From contig NZ_CP150290.1 in NCBI RefSeq assembly GCF_038051995.1, positions 1,227,501 through 1,291,500 of the forward strand: DNA of 64,000 nt, given 5' to 3'. How positions within the stretch are numbered: the first letter of the stretch is position 1; each line of letters begins with the position of its first letter. Below are positions 934 to 24,980 of this stretch, piece by piece. The position numbers and the translations under genes are program-made. The notes beneath the pieces were generated by a model. The model was not told the DNA's origin. It searched no databases and was given only the letters and a program-made list of their open reading frames with translations. Source of the stretch: Paenibacillus sp. FSL H8-0537. GTDB lineage: Bacteria; Bacillota; Bacilli; Paenibacillales; Paenibacillaceae.

Positions 934-1626
934 TTAACGCTTACTGGCAACCAGCATATATCCGGCCCCGCGAATTGTAATGATTCTCTCAGGATTGACA
1001 GGATCAGCCTCGATTTTTTTGCGTAAATTACTGATGTGTACAGCGACCGTTCTCGTATCCTCCAGGCTCTCCATTCCCCAGATGAGCTGAAACAATGCAT
1101 CGGCACTGACGACACGATTCACGTTTTGTGCCATATAGGACAGTAGATTGAACTCTTTTTTTGATAAAAAGATGGGTTCACTACCCAGGTTGACGGACTG
1201 TGCGTAGAAATCGAGCGTCAAACCCGGTAGCTCCAGCTGTTGTTCCCTTCTGCCCTTCGATACTCTGCGAAGGTGAGCCTTGATTTTGGCCATGAGTACG
1301 CCTGGGCTAAACGGCTTGGTCACATAATCGTCGCCCCCATCGGATAATGCGCTGATTTTCACCTCGTCTTCCTCACGACTGCTCAGAAATACGATCGGTG
1401 CATCCGTGTAGCTACGGGCGTTTCTGCACCAATCAATGCCATTTTCATTAGCTAGTAGTACATCCAGTACAATCAAATCCGGCTCGAAAGACGCAAGCAG
1501 CTCCATAGCTTCTGTCCCGTTATGACTGTAGGCGGATGTGAAGCCCTCTCTCTCACAATACACCTGAACTATTTCGCAAATATGGGGATCATCATCGACG
1601 ATCATAATTTTGTACGTATCCTTCAT
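934..1626 (-). CDS. OmpR/PhoB-family response regulator
   Basis: A 230-residue DNA-binding response regulator, probably phosphorylated by the kinase encoded just upstream (1646-3784). The receiver domain (about residues 5-120) shows the acidic pocket VDDD at 10-13, phospho-acceptor Asp55 in IVLDVLL, and the conserved Lys in VTKPFSP. The C-terminal winged helix (about 130-228) ends with RTVAVHISNLRKKI and IRGAGYML, typical of OmpR/PhoB members. The start was moved to the ATG at 1626 because AGGAAGGTG lies just before it and the receiver domain begins there; the frame stays open further upstream. Only 19 bases separate it from the kinase stop, so the pair is one operon. Target genes are not shown; the nearby SLH genes are candidates by position only. 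Confidence 0.92.
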   Translation of the reverse strand: MKDTYKIMIVDDDPHICEIVQVYCEREGFTSAYSHNGTEAMELLASFEPDLIVLDVLLANENGIDWCRNARSYTDAPIVFLSSREEDEVKISALSDGGDDYVTKPFSPGVLMAKIKAHLRRVSKGRREQQLELPGLTLDFYAQSVNLGSEPIFLSKKEFNLLSYMAQNVNRVVSADALFQLIWGMESLEDTRTVAVHISNLRKKIEADPVNPERIITIRGAGYMLVASKR

Positions 1627-1645
1627 GCCATCACCTTCCTGCTTC

Positions 1646-3784
1646 TCAAAAATACAGAGGCAGCGATACATAGAATATCGACCCCGTCTTGCCATCGCTC
1701 TCCGCTCGAACCGCCCCGCCATGCGCTTGTACGATTTCCCTGCAAATCGCCAGCCCGAGGCCGCTTCCCTCTATGCCATTTTCCATGCCTGATCGATCAT
1801 ATCTGTAATTGCGATTGAAGATTTGCTCAAGCTGCTCCGGAGGAATACCCGTACCAGAGTCTTGTACGCTAATAATCGCACAGCGGTTATCCTTCAGCTC
1901 GTCCAAGGCAAGTGCAAGACGCACCACCCCGCCGCTAGTGGTGAACTTCATCGCGTTCGACACTAGATTAAACAAAGCCTGCTCTAATCTTTGTGCATCC
2001 ATCTCAACAACAGGCATGTCGGGTCGTTGGTCTTCTATATTTCCGATATCCAGTATGAAATCCAGCCCTGCGTCACGCACAACCAGCTCATACTGTTCAA
2101 AAAAACCACGCAAGAAGTGAATCGCATGAACCGGTTCCATTCGATACGCTATTTGCCCCGTCTCCAGATGTGACAAGAAGGACAACTCCTCGATCATGCG
2201 ATTAATCCTAATCGTGTTGTCCTGAATATACTTCAGGTACTGTTCATTGCGCTCCGGCTTAACCATGTCCTTCACAGCCTCGACATAACCAAGCATGCTG
2301 GACAGCGGCATGCGCAAATCATGTGTAATGTAGGCAAGCAGCTTCTTCCTCCCTTGCTCAGAGTGGAGTAACCGCTCATATGACGTGCGGAGATTTTCGT
2401 GAGCTGCGGATAACTCATGTGTGCGCTCCATCACGATCCGCTCCAAATTGGTATTCATTTCAGACAGCTTGTTATTCGCTCCCAGCAGCTCGCGTGCTAT
2501 CCTCTCTTCGTTCGTTGCCGCCCTCGTAAATCTTGAAGAAAGCAGAATCATCTGTGCGATCGTAAATACCAACAGACCAAACGGAGATGTATTTCCGATG
2601 GGTGACCATTCGCTGTAATATAAAAAATCGTTGATAACCGTAACGAGAGTAACCACCGACACGAGCAGGAAGATCAGCGCTCCCTCCATACGCCGCAAAG
2701 CCGCGTAGGCAAGCCCGATCATCAAATACGCCATCTGCAGTACAACGATTACACCAATCACCAGTAACAATTTGGAATAGATTAGCGCAGGGGTCATCAC
2801 AACAATTAGGCAGAGCGCGCCAGTTGCGATATGGGTGCAAAGACGAAACCATCGCGACACATAATTCGGGAAAATGCATTCAAAATACATGGTGATGATA
2901 TAACCACTGATGCAAAGAATTAAATACTCAATCTTGAACTGCAATTCCCAGGGAAAATGAGGAAGCAATTGTGTAATCATAATCTCGCCGTTGAGCAAAG
3001 AGCGGATGCCGAACAACACGGTGAACAGACCAAAGTACAACGGAGCCCTATCCTTGCGTCGCAGCACGAACAACAGCAGATTATACAAGCCAATCACCAG
3101 CAGGCCTGCCGTTATGAACATATCTGTGGCAACCTTCAGCTTTGTCCTGACCGTTAACTCATCACTGCCGCCCAGCTCTATATACGTGGTGATGCCGCCT
3201 CGCTTATGATGGAAGTTCGATACTTGCATAACCAGCTCTACCTTATCGTTTTTGGGCTGGAAGAACACCAGCTTCGTTGCCAGATGGGGTGTCATGTCAC
3301 TTTTGGCCTGACCAACCACACCGACTTCTGCTAGCAGCTCACCATTAACCCATAATTTATACGCATGAAAAATAGAAGGCAGCCGTAGTGCAAGCCGCTC
3401 ATTCCGATCCTGCTCGCTAAGCTTAATGACCAGTCGAAATGTGGCAAAGCCTTCTCCTTGAAGCTCTTGACCATTGAGCTTGTAGTCTAGCCAGGATCCG
3501 GGGATGTTGATGTATCGATCAGCCTGTCCCCCTTTTTCGATGCGGCTTCGTATTTCCTCAGGCGAAAGCAGCTCTTGCCAGTAGAACGTCCATTCCCCTT
3601 GCAGCTTTAGCAAATTCTGACTGACATGATCCTGCGTTAAATCTAGAATGCCTTCTTCGCTTTGAATCCGAGGGGAACCCGGTGTAGACGAGAGGAGATA
3701 GCTTGCGACCAAACCAGCAACTACGGAAATAACAGCTAAATGAAGCAAGATAGTACGAGTACCCAATCGGAGAAAATCCCTCAT
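1646..3784 (-). CDS. 7TMR-DISM sensor histidine kinase
   Basis: A 712-residue membrane kinase. After a short N-terminal membrane segment (about 12-30) comes an extracellular jelly-roll region with LQGEWTFYWQELL and GFATFRLVIKL, typical of the 7TMR-DISMED2 sugar-binding-like fold (about 45-215). Seven membrane helices follow (about 220-425), then a coiled coil (about 430-475), a HisKA domain with H-box THDLRMPLSSM (His488) and an HATPase domain with LVSNAMKF and GSGLGLAI. The family senses an unidentified, probably carbohydrate, ligand and passes phosphate to its partner regulator at 934-1626. The ribosome site before the ATG at 3784 is weak. The ectodomain is homologous to that of the hybrid kinase at 13000. 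Confidence 0.9.
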   Translation of the reverse strand: MRDFLRLGTRTILLHLAVISVVAGLVASYLLSSTPGSPRIQSEEGILDLTQDHVSQNLLKLQGEWTFYWQELLSPEEIRSRIEKGGQADRYINIPGSWLDYKLNGQELQGEGFATFRLVIKLSEQDRNERLALRLPSIFHAYKLWVNGELLAEVGVVGQAKSDMTPHLATKLVFFQPKNDKVELVMQVSNFHHKRGGITTYIELGGSDELTVRTKLKVATDMFITAGLLVIGLYNLLLFVLRRKDRAPLYFGLFTVLFGIRSLLNGEIMITQLLPHFPWELQFKIEYLILCISGYIITMYFECIFPNYVSRWFRLCTHIATGALCLIVVMTPALIYSKLLLVIGVIVVLQMAYLMIGLAYAALRRMEGALIFLLVSVVTLVTVINDFLYYSEWSPIGNTSPFGLLVFTIAQMILLSSRFTRAATNEERIARELLGANNKLSEMNTNLERIVMERTHELSAAHENLRTSYERLLHSEQGRKKLLAYITHDLRMPLSSMLGYVEAVKDMVKPERNEQYLKYIQDNTIRINRMIEELSFLSHLETGQIAYRMEPVHAIHFLRGFFEQYELVVRDAGLDFILDIGNIEDQRPDMPVVEMDAQRLEQALFNLVSNAMKFTTSGGVVRLALALDELKDNRCAIISVQDSGTGIPPEQLEQIFNRNYRYDRSGMENGIEGSGLGLAICREIVQAHGGAVRAESDGKTGSIFYVSLPLYF

Positions 3785-3892
3785 GATGAAGTCGACCCCA
3801 ATCTACAAGATGCGCTATAAATAAGTTGATTATTTTAATGATAGCATGATTGGCCTATTTTATCTCAAATGCGAGTTTAAAGTTTTCTTTAG

Positions 3893-4093: not shown

Positions 4094-4150
4094 TGAATAT
4101 TTAAAAGCTCAGCGAAGTCACTAGGGAAATAAATTTTCTTGCATCATTAT

Positions 4151-4190: not shown

Positions 4191-4278
4191 TTTGAGTCGA
4201 ATTCTATCATTATTCTTTTATTTGGCTGTAATAAGCTTATTTATGAACGTCTAAGGGATAATGGAGGGGAGAAAAGCA

Positions 4279-7200
4279 ATGCGTAGACCGGGAGCGAAAT
4301 GGTTGGTCGTGCTGGTGACGGCGGTCATGTTATGGAATGCCATAATTGGAGGGGGCTTCGGAAGTGGCAAAGCCTTCGCGGCGAATGAATTTTCTGGTAA
4401 TGGCACATCGAGCAGTCCGTATCTTATTGGAACGGCCGATCAGCTTAACGAAATCAGGGGTTCTTATCTGAATAAGGATCTTTTTTTCAAGCTGACAAAA
4501 AATATTGATTTGAATACCAGCAGCTATAAGGATAACTGGACACCGATTGGAGATAGATCGAATGCACCTTTTCGGGGGAATTTCGACGGCAACGGATTTG
4601 TGATTTCTGGGCTGACTATTGATAAGCAGAGTAATAACCTGGGATTGTTCGGTAATACCAGCGTAGAGAGTGTTATTCATAATATAAAGCTGGAAAATGT
4701 AAATGTTACCGGTTTGAATTCGGTAGGCGGTCTGGTTGGCGCTAATAAAGGTATGATCACAAACAGCTATGTAACAGGTCAAGTAAATGGAGACGATCAT
4801 ACAGGCGGTTTAGTTGGTCACAATGGTGTCACGCTTTTCAATACGAATGCGATTATTGACCATAGCTTCGCTGTTGTGGATGTGTTTGGAGCGTATGGAA
4901 CAGGCGGCCTTACGGGAGGCAATACGGGAACAATCACGTATAGCTACGCGACGGGGGACGTGAAAGGAGATTATGCAGTAGGGGGCTTGGCAGGTGAGAA
5001 TGATGGATCGATTAGTTACGGCTACGCCACCGGAGGAATGTTGGATGGACAAAGTATAGGCGGATTAGTGGGCAGCAATTCTGGAGCAATTGACAGCAGC
5101 TTTGCCACGGGACGGGTGAACGGAACGTACTATACGGGTGGTTTAACAGGCTACAATTATGGAACGATCAGCAAGAGCTATTCCACAGGGGATGTATACG
5201 GAGATCAGCATGTCGGGGGCTTGGTCAGCAACCTTGAAGTAGCCGGCTCCATCAGCGACAGCTTTGCCACAGGGAATGTAAGCGGATCATATTATGTGGG
5301 CGGCTTGATAGGGTATGATTACGCCAATAGTACAGGGGCGTATAGCAACAGCTACGCCAGCGGGAATGTGAGCGGAATTGCTGACGTAGGAAATTTGAGC
5401 AGCAGGGACTTGGGGAATAATGTCGGCAGTCTCTACCTGGACTCAAGTATGAAAGGACCTGTTGCCGGGTGGGATTTTGTCAACCTATGGGCGGTAGATC
5501 CGCTGCGTAATAACGGCTATCCTTATTTGCAGGATACTTTGTTTCAACTGCAATATGACGGGAACGGAAACAACGGGGGGACTGTTCCAAGCGACGCCAA
5601 CTCGTATTTTCCGGGTGAAACGGCCAGTGTTTATGCGGGGCCAATTAACCTAACGAGGACGGGATATACGTTCAGCGGCTGGAACACACAGCCAAACGGG
5701 CACGGCAATAGCTATAGCGGCTCTTTGCAGATTATGCCTTATACGACCTTATATGCACAATGGGCTGCACAAAGCTCCGCGGCCACATTGACTTCCGGTA
5801 TCGGAGTCGTCAGCCAGGGCGGAACGGCAAACGAAACGATAACAAACATCCCATACGGAACCTCATTAGCTGTTTTAAAGGAAGAGATCACACCAGCAAC
5901 TAATGCGACTTTTGAAATTTACGATGCAGACGGAGCGACTGTGGCGACGACCCTGGCTTCTGGCAATAAGGTCATTGTAACCGCGGCGGATGGTTTGACG
6001 AAGGTTATCTATACCGTGACCGTCATTGCTAGCAGTGAAAAGGATATTACAGCCTTCAGCTTCGCTGAACAGACCGAAGCAGCAACGATTAATCAGGCTG
6101 CCCAGACAGTAGTGGTAGAGGTGGCGGGCGGCACTGATGTGACTAGTTTGAAAGCCGCATTCACGTTATCTGCTGGCGCGACGGCTTCGGTTGGCTCTAT
6201 TGTTCAGGTAAGCGGGACGACGGCCAATGACTTTACAAATGCGGTCATCTATGAGGTGAAGGCGGAGGACGGCAGCACGCAAAATTGGACAGTCACCGTG
6301 ACGAAGAGCAGCGAGAAAGAGATCACGGCATTTTCAGTAATTGGGGTTACACAAACGAAAGCTGCAGTTATTAATACGACTGACTATACTGTAGATGTTG
6401 AGGTCGCCTTCGGAACGAGCCTGACTAGCTTGTCTAATTTGAAGGCAACGTTCTCCTTGTCTTCTGGAGCGACAGCGAAAATCGGCAGTGTCGTTCAAAT
6501 AAGTGGTACTACTGCCAACGATATGAGAACGCCTGTCACATATATCATAACAGCGGCAGATGGCAGTTCTCAGGAATGGCTCGTTAATGTCTACATTGAA
6601 GCGAGCAATGCAAAAGACATTACGGCGTTCAGTTTTACTTCGCAAACCAAGCCGGCAACGATTAATGCAGCTGCCCACACGGTAGACATTGAAGTGAAGA
6701 GCGGCACGAATGTGGCTAATTTGGTCGCCACTTTCTCGTTAACTTTATCATCCAGCGCCAGGGTTAATGGCGTATCTCAAAGAAGTGGCATAACATCTAA
6801 CAATTTCACGAATCCCGTTACTTATGTAGTGCAGGCGGAAAATGGAACTAGGCAAAATTGGGTCGTTACGGTGACCGTTGCGCCGCCGAGCAGTGCAAAG
6901 GATATTACAGCGTTCAGCTTTGCGGAGCAAAGCAGAGCAGCAACGATCAGTGCTGCCGCGCAAACGGTTGAGATTGAAGTGACGAATGGTACTAGTCTGA
7001 ATGGTCTAAAAGCAAGCTTCACATTATCCGCGGGAGCCGCAGCTAAAGTCAGCAATGTAACACAAATGAGTGGTACGACGACGAATGATTTTACGACCCC
7101 GTTGACTTATGTCGTGACTGCGGAGGATGGCAGCATCAAGAATTGGACGGTCACGGTGACTGTCGCGGCAAGCAGTGCGAAGGCGATCACGGCATTCAGC

Positions 7201-8655
7201 CTTGCAGAGCAGACAGGAGCGGCGACGATTAATGCCGCAGCCCATACGATTGCGGTTCAAGTGGCGCATGGAACGGATTTGAATGGTCTTGTGGCAAGCT
7301 TCGCGTTATCACCGGGAGCATCGGCAATGGTTGGTTCGGTGAATCAAGTGAGTGGTACAACCGCGAATGATTTTACGAATGCAGTGACCTATATTGTAGA
7401 GGCGGCTGACGGAAGCACGCAGAACTGGACGGTTACGGTAAGCATTGCGACGGCTGCGGCAAGCAGTGCGAAAGCGATCACAGCATTCAGCTTGGCAGAG
7501 CAGACAGGAGCCGCAACGATTAATACGACCACCCACACGATTGCAATTGAAGTGGCGAACGGCACGGACGTGAGCAACTTGGTGGCCACGTTTACGTTGT
7601 CTGCCGACGCATCCGCCAAGGTCGGCACGGTAGATCAGGTAAGTGGAACAACCAACAATGACTTCTCAGCTCCGGTCGTATACACGGTGACTGCGGAGGA
7701 TGGTAGCACGCAAGACTGGACGGTTACGGTAAGCGTTGCGAAGAGCAATGTGGCTACGCTAACGTCGCTGATAGGGATCGTAAGCTCAAGAGGTACGGTT
7801 AACGAAACCATTACGAGCATTCCATACGGTACAACGTTAGCCGTATTCAAGGCGGCGATTACGCCAGCACCGAAGGCAGCTTTCAATGTATACGATTCTG
7901 ACGGTAATACCCTGGCTACCGTATTGGCAACAGGTCAGAAAGTCATCGTTACCGCAGAGGATGGAATCACGAAGGTGACATATACCGTAACCGTGAATGC
8001 CGCCCCTGGAGGTAACGGATCGACGCCTCCAAGTACAGCTCCATCTGACGGTGGATCCGCTGGCAATCCTTCTGATAATGGGTCTGAAGAGAATCCCTCT
8101 ACAAATCCACAACCGACGATTGTTTTCAGCGACATTAGTGGGCACTGGGCAGAGGAGGCCATTAAGCAAGCCGTACAAAGTGAAATGATTAACGGTTACC
8201 CGGATGGTACTTTCAAACCGAACTACACGGTGACCCGCGCTGAATTCGTGGTCATGCTGATGAACGCGTTGAAGCCAAAGACAGTGGGAGTGGAGCTAAA
8301 CTTCACCGATGCGGATAAGATTGGGACATGGGCACAGGAAGCCGTCGCGCAAGCCATGCAAGAAGGTATTATTAAAGGGTATGGAGATGGCTCGTTCCGA
8401 CCGAACGCAGAAATAACGCGTGCGGAGATGGTCGCTATGATTGCCAATGCGCTTAAGCTTTCGACCGAATTGGGAGCAACGGGCTTCGCGGACGACAAGG
8501 ATATACCTGAATGGGTGAGAGGCGCGATAGTTGCGATAAAGAATCTTGGCATCATTCAAGGTATGGGGAATAACCGGTTCCATTCGACTGGCAATGCGAC
8601 GAGAGCGGAGGCAGTAACCGTTCTAATCAACATGCTGGCTCGGCAAAATCAGTAG
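4279..8655 (+). CDS. GLUG/Ig-like repeat SLH surface protein
   Basis: A 1458-residue secreted, S-layer-anchored protein. The start is ATG 4279, preceded by GGAGGGGAG (4263-4271); the in-frame ATG at 4261 lies before that site and is unlikely. Domains: signal peptide 1-34 (cut after KAFA); GLUG repeats about 148-388 (GGLVGxNxGxIxxSYxTG); one InlB-type/Flg_new repeat about 419-495 ending TTLYAQW; an Ig-like unit beginning ATLTSGIGVVSQGG (501-584); six DUF5018-like units of about 90 residues beginning SSAKxITAFSxAEQT (585-1155); a second copy of the ATLTS unit (1157-1242); a Gly/Ser/Pro linker; three SLH domains (1283-1458) with TRAEF, TRAEM and TRAEA. Role inferred: adhesin or surface binding protein. 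No catalytic domain is seen. Confidence 0.93.
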   Translation: MRRPGAKWLVVLVTAVMLWNAIIGGGFGSGKAFAANEFSGNGTSSSPYLIGTADQLNEIRGSYLNKDLFFKLTKNIDLNTSSYKDNWTPIGDRSNAPFRGNFDGNGFVISGLTIDKQSNNLGLFGNTSVESVIHNIKLENVNVTGLNSVGGLVGANKGMITNSYVTGQVNGDDHTGGLVGHNGVTLFNTNAIIDHSFAVVDVFGAYGTGGLTGGNTGTITYSYATGDVKGDYAVGGLAGENDGSISYGYATGGMLDGQSIGGLVGSNSGAIDSSFATGRVNGTYYTGGLTGYNYGTISKSYSTGDVYGDQHVGGLVSNLEVAGSISDSFATGNVSGSYYVGGLIGYDYANSTGAYSNSYASGNVSGIADVGNLSSRDLGNNVGSLYLDSSMKGPVAGWDFVNLWAVDPLRNNGYPYLQDTLFQLQYDGNGNNGGTVPSDANSYFPGETASVYAGPINLTRTGYTFSGWNTQPNGHGNSYSGSLQIMPYTTLYAQWAAQSSAATLTSGIGVVSQGGTANETITNIPYGTSLAVLKEEITPATNATFEIYDADGATVATTLASGNKVIVTAADGLTKVIYTVTVIASSEKDITAFSFAEQTEAATINQAAQTVVVEVAGGTDVTSLKAAFTLSAGATASVGSIVQVSGTTANDFTNAVIYEVKAEDGSTQNWTVTVTKSSEKEITAFSVIGVTQTKAAVINTTDYTVDVEVAFGTSLTSLSNLKATFSLSSGATAKIGSVVQISGTTANDMRTPVTYIITAADGSSQEWLVNVYIEASNAKDITAFSFTSQTKPATINAAAHTVDIEVKSGTNVANLVATFSLTLSSSARVNGVSQRSGITSNNFTNPVTYVVQAENGTRQNWVVTVTVAPPSSAKDITAFSFAEQSRAATISAAAQTVEIEVTNGTSLNGLKASFTLSAGAAAKVSNVTQMSGTTTNDFTTPLTYVVTAEDGSIKNWTVTVTVAASSAKAITAFSLAEQTGAATINAAAHTIAVQVAHGTDLNGLVASFALSPGASAMVGSVNQVSGTTANDFTNAVTYIVEAADGSTQNWTVTVSIATAAASSAKAITAFSLAEQTGAATINTTTHTIAIEVANGTDVSNLVATFTLSADASAKVGTVDQVSGTTNNDFSAPVVYTVTAEDGSTQDWTVTVSVAKSNVATLTSLIGIVSSRGTVNETITSIPYGTTLAVFKAAITPAPKAAFNVYDSDGNTLATVLATGQKVIVTAEDGITKVTYTVTVNAAPGGNGSTPPSTAPSDGGSAGNPSDNGSEENPSTNPQPTIVFSDISGHWAEEAIKQAVQSEMINGYPDGTFKPNYTVTRAEFVVMLMNALKPKTVGVELNFTDADKIGTWAQEAVAQAMQEGIIKGYGDGSFRPNAEITRAEMVAMIANALKLSTELGATGFADDKDIPEWVRGAIVAIKNLGIIQGMGNNRFHSTGNATRAEAVTVLINMLARQNQ

Positions 8656-16000: not shown

Positions 16001-16053
16001 AGCTAGGGCTTGGTACGAAAGTCACTATACGCATCCCTGCCTCGCGAGTTTAA
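13000..16053 (+). CDS. Hybrid 7TMR-DISM kinase with two kinase cores
   Basis: A 1017-residue membrane protein with an unusual domain string: N-terminal membrane segment; extracellular jelly-roll (about 30-200; LDGQWTFYPNQLL, MATYRLQLQM, NEILVQVANYEF); seven-helix 7TMR-DISM region (about 209-412); HisKA with TSHEFKTPLHG (His437); HATPase (LLDNAIKHT, GFGLGLPIAK); receiver (LIVDDQ, Asp737 in VILDLMMPGM, Lys789 in LPKPFD); a LytS/YesM-type His_kinase with QIKPHFLYNVLNS (His828); and a second HATPase (LVENAIRHG, GVGLRNINKRL). It therefore joins HisKA-class and LytS-class cores in one chain. Start ATG overlaps the regulator stop. The probable output is the BTAD regulator encoded just before it. A terminator follows at 16112. 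Confidence 0.93.
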   Translation: MRKKMAAALITLSLLIATYVMLLTYSTIQLKPMPTAVNGVMDLTAWRFEEEGAVRLDGQWTFYPNQLLTQLPALSSDAAGVMSPALIQVPGLWSKQMDTLGMATYRLQLQMGDTGAIYGLKTASILISNRLIVNGEIVGSSGNPAEQEHYKALNKPYVSYFTLQPGWNEILVQVANYEFRVGSGIGESLLLGKAEQMSGIRDQATAHDWIALTAFLIMGLYFIGLFSQRRNDFSLVVFGFVCLCIAVFTSVSGERVLFNAVGPFPFWLYFRIQMVSTVGVGLGFFLYVYTAFRPYCFKWLTRGGLASGAILVMLNMGFASQLSTGPFRQVTSLYVTISLLYATYVFVYTALHKVAGSGFLAVAAMALNALVLNQNMNVYFGVPIYTLPPIEPFLVLLMLALLMSLRFSNAFQKIEELSGKLLQADKQKDDFLARTSHEFKTPLHGVLNISQSMLSDTAQPPTAEQREKLQLLTDITRKLSQLVYDILDLSKLKQGELRMVPVPIDVRSVAEVQVRFYSYLCMENQIRLVNQVPAELSSALADEIRLSQIIGNLLDNAIKHTNNGEIIITGREQGREIEISVQDTGEGIEPQDLPYIFEPFKSLEGAQHRGFGLGLPIAKQLVELQKGTIAVVSTPGVGSTFTFTLPIAEERGEASWSSSYSNAQAMLKEPDYSFQTPYYSNPSGKHTVLIVDDQYVNLKVLIDVLQVLDYHVIAVKNGYEALEQLDQSGRIDLVILDLMMPGMSGYEVCQEIRRQYSLLELPVLMVTAAYQPQDKVAAFQAGANDYLPKPFDLNELKARIGSLLAMKESLGRAVHLEVAFLQSQIKPHFLYNVLNSIVALSYKDVERGRKMIVDLADYLRGSFRFSNTEERIGFAEELSLIRTYVEIEQARFKDRIRFEYTIEESAYSLRMPPLILQPLVENAIRHGIGDRMEGGMVTMTVEELDGGWRIVVADNGVGIASERLETLLERNDTAEPQGVGLRNINKRLKYEYGISLELESELGLGTKVTIRIPASRV

Positions 16054-16111: not shown

Positions 16112-16146
16112 ACAGGTTCTCATCGTTTACGATGGGGCCTGTTTTT
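16112..16146 (+). terminator. Terminator after hybrid kinase
   Basis: ACAGG...CATCG and CGATG...CCTGT pair around TTTA with a small bulge, followed by TTTTT. Confidence 0.75.
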
Positions 16147-16256
16147 CTTGTAGAAAATTGTCGATTTTTAAGGTTTTTTTAAGGTGCCTTCCTGTATGCT
16201 GAGCTAGATCATATGGACTATGCGACAGAATGATAATGCGGAGAGGAAGATGTAGT

Positions 16257-19200
16257 TTGGTTCCAATAAAGAGTAAGCGAAGAATGAACAATATAATCCG
16301 AAAAACGGTACATCTTGTACTTGCCGTTATGCTTTTGATATCGCTTCTATCAAGCGGAGGTACGGCTTGGGCGGCAACCGGCTGGACATCAGTGGATGGC
16401 GGAGGTATTAATGGCATAAACGTAAACGCTGCAAAAGATGGCAGCAACGTGGCATTAGCTGTATTCAGAAACGAAGTATATGCAGCATGGCAGGAACCGA
16501 ATGCAACGGCGACCCAAATACGTGTTAAGAAATATAACGGCACGAGCTGGACGAGCGTAGACGGTAATGGGGCAAGTGGAGTGAATGTAGATTCTGGAAA
16601 AGCGACGGATACCCCTGCTATGGCTGTTTTTGACGATGAATTATATGTTATATGGGTTGAAAGAAACTCAGCCACCACCATTAATCAAGTAAAGGTCAAG
16701 AAATATGATGGCACGAGTTGGACGAGCGTTGATGGCGGCCCAGATGGGCTAAACATTAATGCCTCAAGAGGAGTATCATACCCTGAGTTGTCTGTATATG
16801 ACAATAATCTGTATGCGGCTTGGAATGAGGTTAACAGCAGCAACGCGAATCAAATCCGGGTCAAAAGGTATAACGGCACGGCTTGGACAAGCGTTGACGG
16901 CGGCGGTGTGAACGGTTTGAACGCAAATACGTCACTGGGAGCGGGTCTCCCTAAAATGGCGGAATACAATGGTTTTTTATATTTGGCGTGGAGTGAAACC
17001 AACGGAAGCGCTGTTCAAGTTCGTGCCAAAAAATATGATGGGACGAATTGGACGTCCATTGACGGCGGAGGTACGAGCGGTTTGAATATAAATGCGGCAA
17101 AAACCGCATCCAACCTCTCATTTGCTGTATTCAACAACAGCCTATATTTGTCGTGGGACGAAATAGTCGGAACGAATGATAATCAAATTCGAGTCAAGAA
17201 ATACGACGGCAGCACTTGGACGAGTGCAGACGGCAACGGGATGTATGGTATAAACAAGGATATTAATTTCAGAGCAAATTATGCTAAGTTAGCGGCACTC
17301 GATAACGCTTTATATGCAGTGTGGCAGGAGTACAATGGAACGGCTTTTCAAATCCGGGTTAAAAAATATGACGGTACGAGTTGGACGAGCGTAGATGGAA
17401 ACGCAGTCCAGGGCTTGAACGTAAACGCCTCGAGAGCCGCACAATTTCCTGCGGCAGCAGCGTTAAACAATGTTTTATATGTCGGATGGCAGGAGACCAA
17501 TGGAACGACTACTCAAATTCGGACATCCAGTCATGTGCCGCCTGTGCCGCCGACAATTAATAGCGTAACAGTGAGTCCAGACACTGCAAGCGTTGCACAA
17601 GGAGGAAGCAGACAGCTCACCGCTACGGTGGATGCAGCAGGAGGAGCAGCGACGACGGTGACTTGGACGAGCAGCGACGCGGGCAAGGTCGCGGTGAACA
17701 GCTCGGGGAATGTAACCGTAGCAGCAGATGCCGCGCTAGGCGATTACACGATAACGGCAACGTCTACGGTAGATAGCAGTAAAAAAGACACCTCGAAGAT
17801 TACCGTCACAGAAGCGCCAGCTATTAACAGCGTAAGCGTGAACCCAGGCACGGCAAGCATCATGCAAGGGGGAAGCGAGCAGCTCACCGCTACAGTGGAT
17901 GCAGTAGGAGGAGCGGCGACGACGGTGACTTGGACGAGCAGCAACTCGAGCAAGGTTGCGGTGAACAGCACGGGGAAAGTAACCGTAACAGCGAATGCAA
18001 CGCCGGGTAATTACACGATTACGGCAACGTCGACGGTAGATAACAGTAAAAAAGGCACCTCGACGATTACCGTCACGGCGGCACCAGCAGTTAACAGCGT
18101 AAGCGTGAGTCCAAGCACTGCAAGCGTCGTGCAAGGAGGAAGCGAGCAGCTTTCAGTATTGGTAGACGCAGTAGGCGGAGCAGCGACGACGGTCACTTGG
18201 ATAAGCGATGACGTGAACAACAAGGTGGAAGTAGACAGCGCGGGGAATGTGACGGTAGCGTCCGATGCAACGCCGGGCACCTATACGATCACGGCAACGT
18301 CGACGGTGGATGGCAGCAAAAAAGGCACCTCGACGATTACGGTCACGGCCGCGCCAGCTATCAACAGCGTCAGCGTGAATCCGGGTAGTGCGAGCGTCGA
18401 GCGTGGAGGAAGCAAACAGCTCACAGCATCAGTAGATACAGTGGGAGGAGCAGCGACGACAGTCACCTGGACAAGCGATGATGTGAACAACAAGGTGGAA
18501 GTAGATAGCACGGGAAATGTCACGGTCGCAGCGGATGCACCGTTAAGTACCTACACAATTACGGCAACGTCGACGGTGGATGGCAGCAAAAAAGGTACCT
18601 CGACGATTACGGTCACGGCAGCAGCTTCCTATTCTATCGGTGCAATTACGGATCAGTCGTTAACGGCACTTGTGCAGGGATACGAAGCAGGCACTCAACA
18701 AACAAAAATCATTCTGGTCGCAAATTCGGGAACGGGCACCCTGTCGAACCTGTCGGCAGCGCTTAGTGGCGCAAACGCTAACGATTTTGCAATAACCCAG
18801 CCAGATTCCATTCTAATGAACAGCGCGTCAACCGATTTTAATATTCATACAAAAGACGATTTGCCAGCAGGCACCTATACGGTAACGGTGACCTTATCTG
18901 CAGATCATATGACATCCGTCTCCTTTGTCGTTACGCAAGTTGTAAACTTGCCGAATGCTCCTGAAAATCCACAAAATCTTGTGGCTGATGGCGGCGACCG
19001 TCAAGTTACGCTGAACTGGGGTACAGTATCGGATGCCTTGCAATACCGTATTTATATGGCAACGGATGCTGACCCAAATAACCTCGTTGAGGTGGCGATT
19101 GTCACATCACCTACTTTCAACGTACAAAACCTGATCAATGGCACGACCTATTACTTCGTCGTAAAATCAGAAAACGTGGGAGGCTTGAGCGGGGCATCGA

Positions 19201-20816
19201 ATCTCACAAGTGCGACCTCATCCACAATTCCTGAAGCGCCAACGAACGTGTCCGCAGTGGCGGGCAACGGGCAAGCTGTCGTAACGTTTACGCCTCCAAC
19301 GGATAATGGTGGAAGTGCGATTACAGGCTATGAGGTGACAGCATCACCAGGAAATATCAGCATAATTGGAGGAGTAAGTCCAATTACGCTCACAGGCCTG
19401 ACGAATGGAACAAGCTACACCTTTACGGTAAAAGCAATTAATGCAACGGGTAGAGGCTCTGCTTCTGCGGAATCGAATGCAGTCATTCCGGCAGCATCCA
19501 ATACGCCATCCCAGCCTTCCGCTCCATCGACATCGGGCACTCCGAATACGCCGAACACTCCGAACAACGGTGTGAATATTCTGGTTAACGGAAAAGTTGA
19601 GAATGCGGGTAACGCAACGGTTGGAAGACGAAACAATCAAACCGAAATAACGGTCTTTGTGGATCAGAAAAAACTGGATGAGAGACTCGCTGCGGAAGGG
19701 CTTCAAGCGGTAGTCACGATTCCAATTGAACAAAATTCTGACATTTTCGTCGGAGAGCTGAACGGTCAAATGGTGAGAAACATGGAGGACAAGCAGGCCG
19801 TCCTCGTATTCAAAACCGAAAATGCGACCTACACGCTTCCGGCAGGACAAATGAATATTGCTGCCATATCCGAGCAGGTAGGTGAATCCATCGCCTTGCA
19901 AGATATTAAAGTGAAAATTGAAATTGCCCATCTGACAACAAATACGTTGGAGATTGTGGAGAACGCAGCAGTCAAAGGCCAGTTTACGCTTGTTGGTCAG
20001 CCGCTGAGCTTTATGGTGAGAGCAGTATACGGAGATAAGATTATCGAAGTAACGAATTTTGATGCATATGTGGAAAGGTCGATGGTGCTTCCGGATGGAG
20101 TGGACCCGGCCAAGATTACGACAGGAGTTGTCGTTGAGGCAGATGGCTCCGTACGTCATGTGCCAACTAAAATCCGTCTAATTAACGGAAAGTATGTGGC
20201 ACAAATCAACAGCTTGACGAACAGCGATTATACGGTTGTATGGCATCCGCTCGAATTCTCTGATGTCGCGGAACACTGGGCGAAGGATGCCGTTAACGAT
20301 ATGGGATCGCGCATGGTCGTCGAGGGAACAGGCAACGGGCTGTTCAGCCCTGACCTGGAAATCACTCGTGCTGAATTTGCAGCAATTATCGTTCGCGGAT
20401 TAGGTCTCAAACTCGAGAATGGAGCAACGCCGTTCTCGGATGTTAAAGCAACCGATTGGTTTAACCGAGCGGTCAATACAGCTTATTCCTTACAGCTTAT
20501 CAATGGCTTCGAGGATGGCACATTCCGTCCGAACAACAAAATTACAAGAGAGCAAGCAATGGTTATTCTATCCAAAGCGATGGCGATAACCGGTCTGAAG
20601 GCGAAGCTATATGAGCAATCGGCAGAGGCTGCCCTTCATCCGTACGCTGATGCAGCGGAAGTAGCTGCATGGGCACAAATCGGCGTTGCGGACAATGTGC
20701 AAGCAGGCGTTGTATTCGGCCGAAGCGGTGATTTACTGGCACCGAAGGGGAATATGACAAGAGCCGAGGTTGCGACCATCATACAGCGATTATTGCAAAA
20801 ATCGGATCTGATTTAA
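16257..20816 (+). CDS. SLH protein with seven-repeat predicted propeller, BIG2 and FN3 domains
   Basis: About 1519 residues, secreted and S-layer anchored. I chose TTG 16257 because GGAGAGGAAG sits 7 bases before it and a normal signal peptide (1-39, ending GTAWA) follows; ATG 16230 and 16236 lack a ribosome site, and ATG 16284 is an alternative. Domains: seven repeats of about 55 residues (41-426), each with WTSxDGxG, a LYxxWxE core and QIRVKKY, fitting a seven-bladed beta-propeller; four BIG2 Ig-like units (431-792; TASVxQGGSxQLTATVD); a beta domain (about 792-898); two FN3 domains (900-1080); Ser/Pro/Thr linker; a module shared with the next gene (about 1105-1333); three SLH domains with TRAEF, TREQA and TRAEV. 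Probable surface adhesin. Confidence 0.92.
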   Translation: MVPIKSKRRMNNIIRKTVHLVLAVMLLISLLSSGGTAWAATGWTSVDGGGINGINVNAAKDGSNVALAVFRNEVYAAWQEPNATATQIRVKKYNGTSWTSVDGNGASGVNVDSGKATDTPAMAVFDDELYVIWVERNSATTINQVKVKKYDGTSWTSVDGGPDGLNINASRGVSYPELSVYDNNLYAAWNEVNSSNANQIRVKRYNGTAWTSVDGGGVNGLNANTSLGAGLPKMAEYNGFLYLAWSETNGSAVQVRAKKYDGTNWTSIDGGGTSGLNINAAKTASNLSFAVFNNSLYLSWDEIVGTNDNQIRVKKYDGSTWTSADGNGMYGINKDINFRANYAKLAALDNALYAVWQEYNGTAFQIRVKKYDGTSWTSVDGNAVQGLNVNASRAAQFPAAAALNNVLYVGWQETNGTTTQIRTSSHVPPVPPTINSVTVSPDTASVAQGGSRQLTATVDAAGGAATTVTWTSSDAGKVAVNSSGNVTVAADAALGDYTITATSTVDSSKKDTSKITVTEAPAINSVSVNPGTASIMQGGSEQLTATVDAVGGAATTVTWTSSNSSKVAVNSTGKVTVTANATPGNYTITATSTVDNSKKGTSTITVTAAPAVNSVSVSPSTASVVQGGSEQLSVLVDAVGGAATTVTWISDDVNNKVEVDSAGNVTVASDATPGTYTITATSTVDGSKKGTSTITVTAAPAINSVSVNPGSASVERGGSKQLTASVDTVGGAATTVTWTSDDVNNKVEVDSTGNVTVAADAPLSTYTITATSTVDGSKKGTSTITVTAAASYSIGAITDQSLTALVQGYEAGTQQTKIILVANSGTGTLSNLSAALSGANANDFAITQPDSILMNSASTDFNIHTKDDLPAGTYTVTVTLSADHMTSVSFVVTQVVNLPNAPENPQNLVADGGDRQVTLNWGTVSDALQYRIYMATDADPNNLVEVAIVTSPTFNVQNLINGTTYYFVVKSENVGGLSGASNLTSATSSTIPEAPTNVSAVAGNGQAVVTFTPPTDNGGSAITGYEVTASPGNISIIGGVSPITLTGLTNGTSYTFTVKAINATGRGSASAESNAVIPAASNTPSQPSAPSTSGTPNTPNTPNNGVNILVNGKVENAGNATVGRRNNQTEITVFVDQKKLDERLAAEGLQAVVTIPIEQNSDIFVGELNGQMVRNMEDKQAVLVFKTENATYTLPAGQMNIAAISEQVGESIALQDIKVKIEIAHLTTNTLEIVENAAVKGQFTLVGQPLSFMVRAVYGDKIIEVTNFDAYVERSMVLPDGVDPAKITTGVVVEADGSVRHVPTKIRLINGKYVAQINSLTNSDYTVVWHPLEFSDVAEHWAKDAVNDMGSRMVVEGTGNGLFSPDLEITRAEFAAIIVRGLGLKLENGATPFSDVKATDWFNRAVNTAYSLQLINGFEDGTFRPNNKITREQAMVILSKAMAITGLKAKLYEQSAEAALHPYADAAEVAAWAQIGVADNVQAGVVFGRSGDLLAPKGNMTRAEVATIIQRLLQKSDLI

Positions 20817-20902: not shown

Positions 20903-20960
20903 TTCTCGTTATATTGGCACGCACGATAGTGTGCATCAGAACAACTAGGGGGATACTGAA

Positions 20961-23900
20961 ATGAACTCACTAAATACTAAGCTCAAAAGATTCATCTCAA
21001 CAACTTTGGCATTTTTACTCATATTTAACGCTTCGTTCTTTGTGAATTTGCAAAAGATTCATGCAGAAACCGCGACGAACTTGGCATTGAACAAGTCGGT
21101 GACGGTAAGTGGCACTTTTAATACTTACGTGGGAAGTAACGCAGTAGATGGCAATAATACTACGTTCTGGTCTCAAAACAATACAACCACAGGGGGCTAT
21201 ATAACGATCGATTTAGGTACACAGACGAACTTTAATGCATGGGAAATGTATCGTGGTTGGTACATTTCGGGTATCGAATTGCAAGTCAGTTCGAATGGCG
21301 TAAACTTTTCTAAGATCAACGACCCGAATGCTGCGGATACGATGACTCCAACCTCGTATTATAACTCGGGCATGAAGGCTTTTTCATCCCCAGTTACTGC
21401 GAGATATGTCAAGCTTGTTATTACCTCTAATTACGATAACTATTTTAGAGTATATGAATTCAGCCTCTACAACCTGTCAGCACCTAGCGCTCCGTTGAAC
21501 GTTAGTGCTGTAGGTGGCGTTAATCAGGCGAGGGTATCCTTTAATCCTCCAGCAAGCAACGGTGGTGCCGCGATTAAGAGCTACACGGTTACTTCCTCAC
21601 CGGGCAACATTACTGCGTCGGGCACTACCAGTCCGATTACGGTGACAGGTCTACCCGCAGGAGACTACACGTTCTCGGTTCAAGCGGCGAATATAGCGGC
21701 AAAGAGCTCCAGTTCCGAGGATTCTAACTCCGTTACGGTAACCGCTCCGATGTCACCGGAAGCGACACCGTCGGCGGGAATCGACTACACGGCTGAGCAG
21801 CTGACGGGACTAGAGTCAGCTGGCGCCTACACCATTAACGGAACAGCGGTGACGGTGGACGGCAATGGTAAGGTGGCGATCGACGGCAATTGGTTGGGCA
21901 CAACCGTGAACGTCGTGAAGAAGGGCAATGGCACGACAAAGACCGACAGCGCGGCACAGACGCTAAGCCTGCCGGCTCGCCCGTCGACACCGACCGCTGA
22001 AAAAACGGACGAGACGTCCATAAGCGGGAACAACGGCACGCTGACGAACGTGACGGCGGCGATGGAGTACAAGAAGGGGGCGGCTAGCAGCTGGACGGAT
22101 GTAACCGGCACGAGTGTAACAGGACTGGCACCGGATACGTACTCCGTGCGCGTCAAAGCGACGTCATCGGCATTTGCGTCTGTTGCGCAGACGGTGACAA
22201 TCGCGGCATTCATTGCGACGCAGGAAGCGACACCGTCGGCAGGAATCGACTATGCGGCTGAGCAGTTGACGGGACTGGAGTCAGCTGGTGCCTACACCAT
22301 TAACGGAACAGCGGTGACGGTGGACGGCAATGGTAAGGTGGCGATCGACGGCAATTGGTTGGGCACAACCGTGAACGTCGTGAAGAAGGGCAATGGCACG
22401 ACAAAGACCGACAGCGCGGCGCAGACGCTGAGTCTGCCGGCTCGCCCGTCGACACCGACCGCTGAAAAAACGGACGAGACGTCCATAAGCGGGAACAACG
22501 GCACGCTGACGAACGTGACGGCGGCGATGGAGTACAAGAAGGGGGCGGCTAGCAGCTGGACGGATGTAACCGGCACGAGTGTAACAGGACTGGCACCGGA
22601 TACGTACTCCGTGCGCGTCAAAGCGACGTCATCGGCATTTGCGTCTGTTGCGCAGACGGTGACAATCGCGGCATTCATTGCGACGCAGGAAGCGACACCG
22701 TCGGCAGGAATCGACTATGCGGCTGAGCAGTTGACGGGACTGGAGTCAGCTGGTGCCTACACCATTAACGGAACAGCGGTGACGGTGGACGGCAATGGTA
22801 AGGTGGCGATCGACGGCAATTGGTTGGGCACAACCGTGAACGTCGTGAAGAAGGGCAATGGCACGACAAAGACCGACAGCGCGGCGCAGACGCTGAGTCT
22901 GCCAGTCCGTCCGTCAGCTCCAGTCGATATAACCGTGACGGATACCACTTATAACGGAGCTAATGACGGTTCGATTCTCAATGTGAATGTTACGATGGAC
23001 TTCAAAAAAGGAAATACGGAAATATGGACGAATATAACCGGGACGTCGGTTGCCGGGCTGGAACCGGGCATCTACTACGTGCGAGTAATCGCATCGGAAT
23101 CTGCGTTTGCTTCCATTCCCGCTCAAGTTACCATCCATGAATCGGATGCAACCATTCCAGCGGCACCGAATGTGAGTGCCGACGATGTGAACAATGTGAT
23201 TATTGGTCTGGACACGACAATGGAATTCTCGGTTGACAGCGGAGCTTTCGTCCGATACGACGGAACCAATATGCCGCAGTTGAGCGGTGAACACACGGTT
23301 CAAGTGCGGGTGGCGGCCAGCGGCTCCGTTCCTGCTGGACCGTCTACAACGCTGAGCTTCACGACGAATGCTTCCGTTCCGGCTGGAGGCTTGACGGTGA
23401 TAGCAAGTGATCCGGCTGGCGCGGCGAACGACGGCAAAACTCAGATTACGGTAACGCCTGCCGCCGACGGTGATTACAGGCGGGTCTACTTCAACTTCGG
23501 TAACGGCACTGTAAACGTACCGAATGTTGGCGACACGCTTACGGGATACCTGACCGTACCAGGCGACCGCATGATCCCTGCGGCGAACGGGGACAAGATT
23601 GGTGTAGCCGAGGTAGACGCGCAAGGTCAAGTCTTGAAGTTTGGTCAAACGGCGGCGATAGTGATTGCCGAGCAATCGCCTCCTCAACCTACGAACGGAG
23701 CATCGAGTGGAACGGCCAGTTCGAACGAAGAGTCGGTAGATGTACTGGTTAACGGCAAGATTGAAAATGCAGGAAAAGCGACAACGACTGATTCGGGTGG
23801 CGTCAAGATAACGACAGTCGCCATCGATCCGGTAAAGCTGCAGACAAAGCTGGATGCGGAGGGCGTCAATGCAGTCGTCACCATTCCGGTTAAGTCTGCG

Positions 23901-24980
23901 TCAAATGTCATTGTTGGTGAACTGAACGGTCAGATGGTTAAAAATATGGAGGACCTCTCAGCGACGCTCACTCTGCAGACGAACAGGGGAACCTATACGT
24001 TGCCGGCCAAGGAAATCAACATTGACGAATTAGCAGGGAAGCTCGGCACAAACGTGAAGCTGGAGGACATCCAATTAAAAATTATGGTTGCGCAAACGCC
24101 GGACACGATGGGGAAGGTGCTCGAGAATGCGGCGGCGAAGGGCGAGTTCTCCGTTGTCGTGCCCGCGCTGGACTTCACGGTTACGGGTACCTATGGCGGG
24201 AAAACAGTGGAAGTCACGACATTCAACATCTATGTTGAACGCATAGTGGCTTTGCCGGATGGCATTGATCCTAACCGAATTACAACGGGGATCGTCGTTG
24301 ATGCGGACGGAACAGTGCGGCACGTACCGACTAAAATCGTATCGATTGATGGCAAGTTTTACGCTCAGATCAACAGTTTAACCAATAGTACGTACACGGT
24401 CGTCTGGCATCCGCTCGAATTCTCTGATGTCGCGGAACACTGGGCGAAGGATGCCGTTAACGATATGGGATCGCGGATGGTCATTGAGGGTACGGGCGGC
24501 GGACTGTTCAGTCCTGATCGCGATATTACCCGAGCTGAGTTTGCAGCCATTCTTGTACGCGGATTGGGGTTGAAACCGCAAAACGCGTCAACGGCTTTCG
24601 CTGACGTGAAGACATCGGACTGGTACAACAGTGCGATCAGCACGGCATTGGCGTATCAACTGATTAGCGGGTTTGAGGACGGAACGTTCCGACCGAACGA
24701 CAAGATTACTAGAGAACAAGCGATGACGATTCTCTCCAGAGCGATGACGATTACCGGACTGACGACTAAGCTGTCCGTTCAATCAGAAGAGGTAACACTT
24801 CGTCCGTTTGAAGATGCGTCAACCGTATCCGGTTGGGCATACGGCAGCGTTGCAGACAGCTTGCAGGCTGGCCTAGTATCTGGACGAAACGCCACGATGC
24901 TTGCACCGAAGGCGTCTATTACCCGAGCTGAGGTTGCAACCCTTATTCAAAGACTTTTGCAAATTTCAGACCTGATTTAA
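20961..24980 (+). CDS. SLH protein with F5/8-type C domain and near-identical internal repeats
   Basis: A 1339-residue secreted protein; start ATG 20961 follows CTAGGGGGATACTGAA. Signal peptide 1-35 (cut after KIHA). Residues 37-173 form an F5/8 type C (discoidin-like, carbohydrate-binding) domain: NLALNKSVTVSG, AVDGNNTTFWSQ, ITIDLG, ARYVKLVI. One FN3 domain follows (174-263). Residues 266-648 hold nearly identical 155-residue units (EATPSAGIDY, AEQLTGLESAGAYTINGTA), with a diverged last unit to about 730. Next are a DUF4073-like unit (DDVNNVIIGLDTTMEFS), a further beta domain, the pre-SLH module shared with the gene at 16257 (VLVNGKIENAGKAT, VGELNGQMVKNMED) and three SLH domains (TRAEF, TREQA, TRAEV). 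Likely binds glycans at the cell surface. A terminator follows at 25042. Confidence 0.93.
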   Translation: MNSLNTKLKRFISTTLAFLLIFNASFFVNLQKIHAETATNLALNKSVTVSGTFNTYVGSNAVDGNNTTFWSQNNTTTGGYITIDLGTQTNFNAWEMYRGWYISGIELQVSSNGVNFSKINDPNAADTMTPTSYYNSGMKAFSSPVTARYVKLVITSNYDNYFRVYEFSLYNLSAPSAPLNVSAVGGVNQARVSFNPPASNGGAAIKSYTVTSSPGNITASGTTSPITVTGLPAGDYTFSVQAANIAAKSSSSEDSNSVTVTAPMSPEATPSAGIDYTAEQLTGLESAGAYTINGTAVTVDGNGKVAIDGNWLGTTVNVVKKGNGTTKTDSAAQTLSLPARPSTPTAEKTDETSISGNNGTLTNVTAAMEYKKGAASSWTDVTGTSVTGLAPDTYSVRVKATSSAFASVAQTVTIAAFIATQEATPSAGIDYAAEQLTGLESAGAYTINGTAVTVDGNGKVAIDGNWLGTTVNVVKKGNGTTKTDSAAQTLSLPARPSTPTAEKTDETSISGNNGTLTNVTAAMEYKKGAASSWTDVTGTSVTGLAPDTYSVRVKATSSAFASVAQTVTIAAFIATQEATPSAGIDYAAEQLTGLESAGAYTINGTAVTVDGNGKVAIDGNWLGTTVNVVKKGNGTTKTDSAAQTLSLPVRPSAPVDITVTDTTYNGANDGSILNVNVTMDFKKGNTEIWTNITGTSVAGLEPGIYYVRVIASESAFASIPAQVTIHESDATIPAAPNVSADDVNNVIIGLDTTMEFSVDSGAFVRYDGTNMPQLSGEHTVQVRVAASGSVPAGPSTTLSFTTNASVPAGGLTVIASDPAGAANDGKTQITVTPAADGDYRRVYFNFGNGTVNVPNVGDTLTGYLTVPGDRMIPAANGDKIGVAEVDAQGQVLKFGQTAAIVIAEQSPPQPTNGASSGTASSNEESVDVLVNGKIENAGKATTTDSGGVKITTVAIDPVKLQTKLDAEGVNAVVTIPVKSASNVIVGELNGQMVKNMEDLSATLTLQTNRGTYTLPAKEINIDELAGKLGTNVKLEDIQLKIMVAQTPDTMGKVLENAAAKGEFSVVVPALDFTVTGTYGGKTVEVTTFNIYVERIVALPDGIDPNRITTGIVVDADGTVRHVPTKIVSIDGKFYAQINSLTNSTYTVVWHPLEFSDVAEHWAKDAVNDMGSRMVIEGTGGGLFSPDRDITRAEFAAILVRGLGLKPQNASTAFADVKTSDWYNSAISTALAYQLISGFEDGTFRPNDKITREQAMTILSRAMTITGLTTKLSVQSEEVTLRPFEDASTVSGWAYGSVADSLQAGLVSGRNATMLAPKASITRAEVATLIQRLLQISDLI
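21758..22904 (+). repeat. 465-bp direct tandem repeat, about 2.5 copies
   Basis: Units start at 21758, 22223 and 22688. Units 2 and 3 look identical as far as unit 3 extends; unit 1 differs mainly at silent positions in its first 85 bases and a few near its end. The third unit breaks off at about 22904 and continues as a protein-level but not DNA-level match. Confidence 0.95.

Follow-up and report, generated by a model that had tools for sequence, protein, structure and literature searches.

We analyzed a window of 64,000 nucleotides (positions 1227501–1291500) from the 7.0-Mb single-contig genome of Paenibacillus sp. FSL H8-0537, using lists of open reading frames (ORFs) together with Pfam scans. 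Two pairs of a 7TMR-DISM histidine kinase and a response regulator (HK1/RR1 and HK2/RR2) lie in this window, next to giant surface proteins with SLH domains. Our main result concerns the second pair. We consider it quite likely that RR2, HK2 and the adjacent SLH-B gene form a conserved cassette, in which RR2 activates SLH-B by binding a direct-repeat box at 16165–16186. The strongest part of this reading, which goes beyond what a preliminary description of the window had observed, is a conserved operator-like site that appears from its sequence to tie the HK2 system to its SLH gene. The elements of the cassette are as follows.

11855..13000, + strand: RR2, a response regulator whose output part is SARP-like (REC, then an OmpR-type winged helix-turn-helix (Trans_reg_C) and a borderline BTAD)
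13000..16053, + strand: HK2, hybrid kinase of the 7TMR-DISM type with two kinase cores (jelly roll, a marginal 7TM match, HisKA, HATPase, REC, His_kinase, HATPase)
16112..16142, + strand: intrinsic-terminator-like hairpin after HK2 (-17.2 kcal/mol, z -5.47, T-rich tail)
16165..16186, + strand: SARP-type box of two 11-bp direct repeats, TTTTTAAGGTT / TTTTTAAGGTG
16195..16200, + strand: -10-like hexamer TATGCT, 8 bp after the second repeat
16230..20816, + strand: SLH-B, giant surface protein of 1528 amino acids (aa) (N-terminal repeats, Big_2 x4, fn3 x2, pre-SLH region, SLH x3)

RR2 and HK2 overlap by one base, the last base of RR2 being the first of HK2, and SLH-B may alternatively start at the TTG at 16257. 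We compared the gap between HK2 and SLH-B in an alignment of eight sequences, namely our own and those of seven orthologs. The hairpin follows the kinase in all eight gaps, with a T-poor tail in L165 and L166, and stands 21–25 bp ahead of the box in seven of them. The box has the layout TTTAAGG-N4-TTTAAGG, that is, two heptamers with a 4-bp spacer, and these heptamers are identical in our genome and the seven orthologs save for one base in L164. They belong to a conserved block, TGTCG[AG]TTTTTAAGGTTT[TC]TTTAAGGTG, which is followed by 8 bp and then by TATG. In L164 a short-tandem-repeat array of about 1 kb (L164:7013-8065) lies between terminator and box, both of which are still in place. SARP sites are described in a part of PMC10972967 as heptameric repeats in 11-bp units that overlap the -35 region, and a part of PMC10936776 places the 3' repeat 8 bp from the -10 element; as a layout of sequence, the box between HK2 and SLH-B fits both features. 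Moreover, a consensus promoter scan did not list a promoter at 16195–16200, which would suit a promoter dependent on an activator. No box-like conservation was seen in the alignment of the 300 bp upstream of RR2.

The orthologs come from a search of HK2 against 51 genomes of the genus. As a result, we obtained seven orthologs outside our own genome, with 67–95% identity, and many remoter relatives at 33–41%; the nearest relatives with names belong to Paenibacillus and Cohnella. The gene order RR2-HK2-SLH is retained in 7/7 of these same-genus orthologs, with an SLH protein of 1128 to 1987 aa. Judged by gene lengths, the outer neighbors are the same as in the window in L161 and L162 and different in L163–L167. 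The last ~440 residues of the SLH-B orthologs are conserved; the ligand-facing N-terminal part is swapped in L167 and remodeled in L166, where an extra stretch precedes the propeller repeats. Among further HK2 relatives found by name (L193–L198), the box is present in L193–L195.

The box is also rare. In our 7.0-Mb genome its pattern with up to three mismatches has two matches, and the reversed control has none. The second match, at genome position 1201804, lies 371 bp before the called start of a gene whose product (1051 aa) combines cohesin and fn3 with three SLH domains, an arrangement of box and gene that also occurs in genome G091. With up to two mismatches, the 51 genomes contain 10 matches, all of them in the eight genomes with an HK2 ortholog (at least 67% identity), while the other 43 genomes and the reversed control gave none. 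Since eight of the ten matches are the gap itself, the independent part of this result is the absence elsewhere together with the distal pair. The SLH gene of L001 has a different box, made of TTYAGAT repeats, whose matches in our genome are one exact and two with one mismatch.

We further searched for the same layout at other SLH genes with a scan that was fixed before the other cassettes were viewed: two heptamers at a period of 11 bp, identical in 6/7 positions or more, and TA...T 7–9 bp behind them. Genes were called SARP-linked with our own profile built from three regulators (E 1e-4). In the first scan, which excluded the window and included the own-genome paralogs, 5/14 SARP-linked SLH genes had such a box, compared with 24/641 others (Fisher p 1.8e-4), and local shuffles gave an expectation of 0.22 for the five seen. 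For replication we used a named set, the best 80 of 586 confirmed candidates chosen by similarity to HK2. A SARP-type regulator is the next gene in 55 of the 80 and an SLH gene lies within five genes in 21, counts of adjacency that have no matched control. The named set and the genus search share some genomes, which are counted in both (for example, L253 repeats L164, and L268 shares its contig with L172), and no overlap was detected between the named set and loci L011–L070. Without HK2 orthologs, the named loci have the box at 8/17 SARP-linked SLH genes and 37/502 others; at periods 9, 10, 12 and 13 the counts are 0, 1, 0 and 0 of 17. Large non-SLH genes (>900 aa) near a SARP gene have it in 3/14 cases.

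Many of the scan hits have the half-site TTNAG in common. In the named set, a TTNAG repeat with a -10 element precedes 15/234 genes within three genes of a SARP gene and 2/412 further away, and the corresponding counts in the family set (the other genomes of the family, described below) are 5/107 and 0/455. There were no matches near SARP genes at periods 8–10 and 12–14 in either set, and the control-kinase loci have 1/330. The box layout with other half-sites, often TTNAG, precedes some SLH genes and the genes of a few other giant surface proteins beside REC-SARP regulators in other genera. In some relatives the pairing involves collagen-binding giants as well as SLH proteins: two of these giants, of 1614 and 1445 aa, have genes behind such boxes, the latter with an LPXTG anchor (L250), and in Schinkia the gene of a kelch-dockerin protein does. 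The recognition-helix stretch TC[LMI]SYLR is found in 11/11 regulators of the RR2 clade, the fragment L194.1 being excluded, and in 0/21 others; as one clade, the eleven count as one event. In L222, L238 and L248, proteins of 121, 135 and 162 aa called as REC are encoded between the SARP regulator and the SLH gene, with one additional large gene before the SLH gene in L238, and in L222 and L238 a TTNAG box stands ahead of the short REC gene.

In the mechanism that we propose, the jelly-roll sensor of HK2 would bind an extracellular carbohydrate, and HK2 would pass phosphate to RR2. RR2 would bind the 11-bp direct repeat, which would take the place of a -35 box in the SLH-B promoter, and when phosphorylated it would recruit RNA polymerase as SARP activators do. 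The terminator-like hairpin separates the kinase operon from the SLH-B gene, and the outcome would be a surface protein with sugar-facing modules that is made only when the cue is present.

The preliminary description had proposed to compare how often 7TMR-DISM kinase genes lie close to SLH genes with a shuffled expectation, and an excess is seen in our own genome and in other genomes of the family. In our genome we counted 10 DISM matches and 61 SLH gene clusters, the latter from the best 150 of 209 SLH domain candidates. An SLH gene lies within 10 kb of 7/10 DISM kinases, compared with 16/94 other kinases (Fisher p 8.6e-4; HisKA 8/45, His_kinase 8/49). Circular shifts give a mean of 1.48 at 10 kb and 0/5000 of them attain seven, and for the same count a local jitter of 300 kb gives p 2e-4. 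At a limit of 5 kb the excess is weaker, with 3/10 DISM kinases (circular-shift p 0.034, local jitter p 0.085). Counted in called genes, an SLH gene is at most four genes away at L001–L004 and L008, and none is near L005, L006 and L007.

For the other genomes of the family we used regions of 20 kb: 60 around DISM matches, 37 around PF06580 matches and three at random places. The 60 were drawn from at least ~140 matches outside our genome, by closed genome and contig position and not by neighbors. The PF06580 controls are top-scoring and mostly plain sensor kinases of ~600 aa, and the HisKA control is confined to our own genome. Two DISM regions (L047, L051) and two controls (L091, L093) were lost for want of a called central gene. 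An SLH gene occurs within five genes of 19/58 DISM kinases and 0/35 control kinases (Fisher p 3.8e-5), and within two genes of 12/58 and 0/35. One control, L072, has an SLH gene within its 20 kb, eight genes distant; the random places, all three in one genome, have an SLH gene at 0/3. As a class, the DISM kinases are mixed, because 12 of the 14 plain ones without an SLH gene (among 21 plain ones in other genomes) share another layout, with some variation. In it, the kinase is divergent from a regulator of ~240–260 aa, followed by genes of ~290, 260 and 440 aa. This layout, seen at L011, L019, L024, L025, L030, L061 and L065–L070, resembles a separate conserved function.

As to the cue, a profile built from 48 sensor domains finds the GH2 sugar-binding domain 5uj6 (2.5e-7). 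The AlphaFold2 model of HK2 residues 1–216 has a mean predicted local distance difference test score (pLDDT) of 85.8, and Foldseek places GH2 enzymes first for it (6ncw 8.1e-8, TM-score by query 0.44). The model of the N-terminal repeats of SLH-B, based on six sequences, resembles a propeller (pLDDT 85.2), and its best structural matches are glycoside hydrolases (5muk 5.6e-10), with sialidases and a PL24 lyase within the first 50. These models suggest carbohydrate ligands for both the HK2 sensor and the SLH-B repeats. Carbohydrate sensing by HK2 is plausible because, by profile and predicted fold, its sensor is related to GH2 sugar-binding domains. Elsewhere in our genome, at L004:12175-19081, a DISM/SARP cassette has as its neighbor a rhamnogalacturonan lyase with an SLH anchor (RGL11_C 831 bits), which hints at pectin as the cue of that cassette.

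Several observations weigh against the reading that RR2 activates SLH-B. The link between HK2 and its SLH gene is drawn from sequence, with expression, binding and phosphotransfer inferred. In L194 and L195 the gene behind the box encodes a giant secreted protein without SLH and without a Pfam family, and no TTTAAGG repeat or such box was found in L196–L198. The scan found no box at 9/14 and 9/17 of the SARP-linked SLH genes, those of the own-genome paralogous cassettes L002 and L004 among them. Among the five first-scan hits is L001, whose regulator is a SARP by our own profile and has no Pfam BTAD match. Because of their positions relative to the called start, the starts or hits of four replicated cases are doubtful (L256 +13, L239 -21, L203 -35, L204 -378), and the TTNAG counts are partly circular for SLH genes, since the half-site was derived from the same data. 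Some domain matches are borderline as well. BTAD in RR2 reaches 21.2 bits, just short of the cut-off of 22.1, with Trans_reg_C at 27.6 bits over its cut-off of 26.2; the RR2 paralogs of L002 and L004 have BTAD at 44.6 and 61.4 bits. The 7TMR-DISM_7TM match of HK2 is marginally under the cut-off of 29 at 28.4 bits (28.2 in another scan, and 29 there together with in-frame neighbors). Among the hybrid paralogs, L002, L004, L005, L006 and L007 are above this cut-off and L003 (25.5) and L008 (24) below it. Finally, winged-helix regulators of the OmpR family are able to use repeats of 11 bp too, and the binding protein therefore cannot be identified from the box by itself.

The repeat might be the site of another OmpR-family regulator, for example a PhoP-like one, with RR2 acting elsewhere, and a part of PMC10972967 has PhoP recognizing the AfsR site as well. 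We regard this as highly improbable, given that the box is confined to the 8/51 genomes that have an HK2 ortholog, that related half-sites with a -10 cluster within three genes of REC-SARP genes (elsewhere 2/412, 0/455 and 1/330), and that a different half-site goes along with a different recognition helix. Repression of the SLH gene by RR2, or a role of the box in something other than activation, is unlikely in our view. The direction of control is not readable from sequence, which gives this alternative its room, but a repeat in place of the -35, with 8 bp between it and the -10, is the layout of SARP activation in the part of PMC10936776 concerned, and the silence of the consensus promoter scan fits dependence on an activator.

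DISM kinases and SLH genes could also both belong to the accessory genes and accumulate in shared variable islands without any regulatory link. The window does lie in an SLH-rich stretch, with SLH genes at ~1191, 1204, 1209, 1227, 1235, 1247 and 1252 kb of the genome, and in only 7/13 HK1 ortholog loci is an SLH gene at most four genes away. Yet the excess survives the 300-kb local jitter, the control kinases of the same family genomes score 0/35 within five genes, the SLH gene is kept behind the kinase in 7/7 HK2 orthologs even where other neighbors change, and the gap between HK2 and SLH-B holds a conserved box and terminator; mere gathering thus seems improbable to us. A different question is what the kinase reads. 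It may monitor its own envelope, either the loading of SLH proteins or their cell-wall polymer, as a feedback control and not for an outside glycan, and this we hold possible, if doubtful. The predicted sensor fold is of a sugar-binding type, and the data here do not separate inside from outside sugars; moreover, a part of PMC6030368 gives the ligand of the SLH domain as a pyruvylated cell-wall glycan. On the other hand, the related cassette of L250 appears to target the collagen-binding protein with the LPXTG anchor, for which the SLH ligand would play no part, and the paralogous cassette of L004, beside its rhamnogalacturonan lyase, points to a plant polysaccharide. 

The first pair lies at the other side of the region and is accompanied by an SLH protein on each flank.

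1..528, + strand: 3' end of the upstream SLH gene (L009:6083-10528; 1481 aa in total, SLH x3, GLUG, List_Bact repeats)
934..1722, - strand: RR1, OmpR-type response regulator (REC, Trans_reg_C)
1646..3784, - strand: HK1, 7TMR-DISM histidine kinase, non-hybrid (jelly roll, 7TM, HisKA, HATPase)
4261..8655, + strand: SLH-A, giant surface protein of 1464 aa (GLUG, DUF5018 repeats, SLH x3), divergent from HK1

The 1481-aa SLH gene starts before the window and is convergent with RR1/HK1. Directly upstream of it, L009:1614-5972 encodes a regulator of the AAA_16/GAF/LuxR type (1452 aa) that also has a partial match to a protein kinase; here a regulator of another kind adjoins an SLH giant. The true start of RR1 is probably the internal Met at ~1626, because HK1 ends at 1646. 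In HK1 the 7TMR-DISM_7TM match scores 75.7 bits, above the cut-off of 29, and the GH2_N-like jelly roll 22.8 bits, below its cut-off of 28. The ORF lists and Pfam matches bear out the preliminary description in that both kinase/regulator pairs and SLH giants of more than 1300 aa are where it had placed them and the sensor motif (LQGEWTFY / LDGQWTFY) is common to HK1 and HK2. Its further idea of one system present twice has to be given up, because the architectures and regulator classes differ: HK1/RR1 pairs a plain kinase and an OmpR-type regulator, HK2/RR2 a double-kinase hybrid and a REC-SARP regulator, which rules them out as duplicates.

The regulatory tie to surface proteins that it had supposed is favored for HK2 by the cassette, the terminator and the operator-like repeat, and is weaker for HK1, where we found no operator. 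HK1 has 14 same-genus orthologs with 69–87% identity, 13 of which were examined with long flanks. Those with the nearby SLH gene are L168, L171, L172, L174, L175, L179 and L180, and no SLH gene was called near L169, L170, L173, L176, L177 and L178. In an upstream alignment of our own and the 13 loci, of which the last part was viewed, the sequence beside the HK1 start is conserved and no shared repeat points at the SLH gene. A relative of the RR2 box with three mismatches lies at 3876–3893, between HK1 and SLH-A. Around it, at 3876–3904, are loose 11-bp repeats (TTTAAAG, CTTTAGG, ATTAAAG), followed after 8 bp by TCTAAT and oriented toward SLH-A, which were not seen in L168. They are a possible RR1 site by their sequence, and control of SLH-A by RR1 is a guess. 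HK1/RR1 probably serves its SLH neighbors in the same spirit through a plain OmpR-type regulator, with much less certainty than HK2. The same genome contains, ~20 kb away from HK1, a remnant of an HK1-like sensor (LKLQGEWAFYSQELLAEVCVVG) at L191:7332-7571 (- strand). It adjoins another SLH gene, which starts at L191:7880, and represents a decayed further pairing of kinase and SLH gene.

Behind SLH-B follows a third giant.

20961..24980, + strand: SLH-C, giant surface protein of 1339 aa (F5/8 type C, fn3, SbsC_C, SLH x3)

SLH-C has only its last 445 aa in common with SLH-B, at 60%, and no box was found in the gap upstream of it. It looks like a later tandem addition, because it is missing at the corresponding place in G038 and G091, where the next window gene (323 or 320 aa) directly follows SLH-B; among the seven ortholog loci, L165 alone has a second SLH gene (763 aa) immediately after the first. 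The translation of SLH-C has long near-identical internal repeats (ATPSAGIDY... units). In SLH-B, the region ahead of the SLH domains (19479–20399, residues ~1084–1390) has no Pfam match and is kept in SLH-C and the distal SLH protein (VNGKxExAG ... SLTNSxYxVVW). SLH-A, SLH-B and SLH-C each have three SLH stretches above the cut-off, with 128.1, 124.7 and 123.1 bits per whole protein. Their hydrophobic N-termini are visible by eye, and export and attachment to the cell wall are predicted for them.

A genome of the Paenibacillaceae can carry dozens of SLH proteins, as the 61 SLH gene clusters here illustrate, and we found no published account of how they are individually switched. Our literature search, covering titles and the starts of abstracts among the matches listed, gave no account of 7TMR-DISM with SLH or in Paenibacillus, and no paper joining the bacterial transcriptional activator domain, a response regulator and Paenibacillus. 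Because a named surface protein is preceded here by a predicted sensor and its regulator and by a defined operator-like site, the question of switching becomes directly testable. The analysis also predicts at which DNA site REC-SARP regulators of Bacillota would bind, and surface proteins may become assignable to sensors, perhaps even to sugars, from their sequences. A broader reading, whose chances we regard as about even, is that of a portable sense-and-display module of Bacillota. In such a module a GH2-fold DISM hybrid kinase and a REC-SARP regulator would drive a single giant surface protein of their own. The operator, likewise private, would be made of 11-bp repeats, and its half-site (TTAAGG, TTCAGA, TTTAGA, TTGAGA) would be matched by the recognition helix of the regulator. 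Anchors (SLH, LPXTG, cohesin/dockerin) and ligand-facing modules would be freely swapped, and a genome would hold several insulated copies, each answering a different sugar with a different surface protein.

Compared with known systems, a SARP-type two-component switch of surface proteins would be a variation on known kinds, its activation and its sugar both being predictions. The SARP activators of Streptomyces (AfsR, ActII-ORF4, DnrI) have the same OmpR-type winged helix and a BTAD, for which the match of RR2 is borderline, and parts of PMC10936776 and PMC10972967 describe for them the same 11-bp direct repeats over the -35, with the 3' repeat 8 bp from the -10. RR2 differs from them in the receiver domain in front, the adjoining DISM kinase gene and the Bacillota host, and its neighbors are giant surface proteins, whereas those of the SARPs are antibiotic clusters. 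RetS and LadS of Pseudomonas are 7TMR-DISM kinases whose targets are in the Gac/Rsm network. They share with HK2 the jelly-roll extracellular domain, the kinase core and, by a marginal match in HK2, the seven helices; HK2 differs in its REC-His_kinase-HATPase end, its REC-SARP partner, its link to a surface-protein gene and its predicted targets. The hybrid two-component systems of Bacteroides adjoin polysaccharide utilization loci and are alike in outline, in that a local carbohydrate sensor controls adjacent surface-exposed sugar-handling genes, as is predicted here. The HK2 system has another sensor fold, a separate regulator protein, and SLH/LPXTG proteins instead of SusCD. In Clostridium thermocellum, RsgI/SigI are carbohydrate-sensing factors that work by an anti-sigma factor mechanism and without a kinase. 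They resemble the HK2 system in tying extracellular sugar sensing to cell-surface (cohesin/SLH) proteins in a member of the Bacillota, but the mechanism there is an anti-sigma one, whereas here it would be a kinase.

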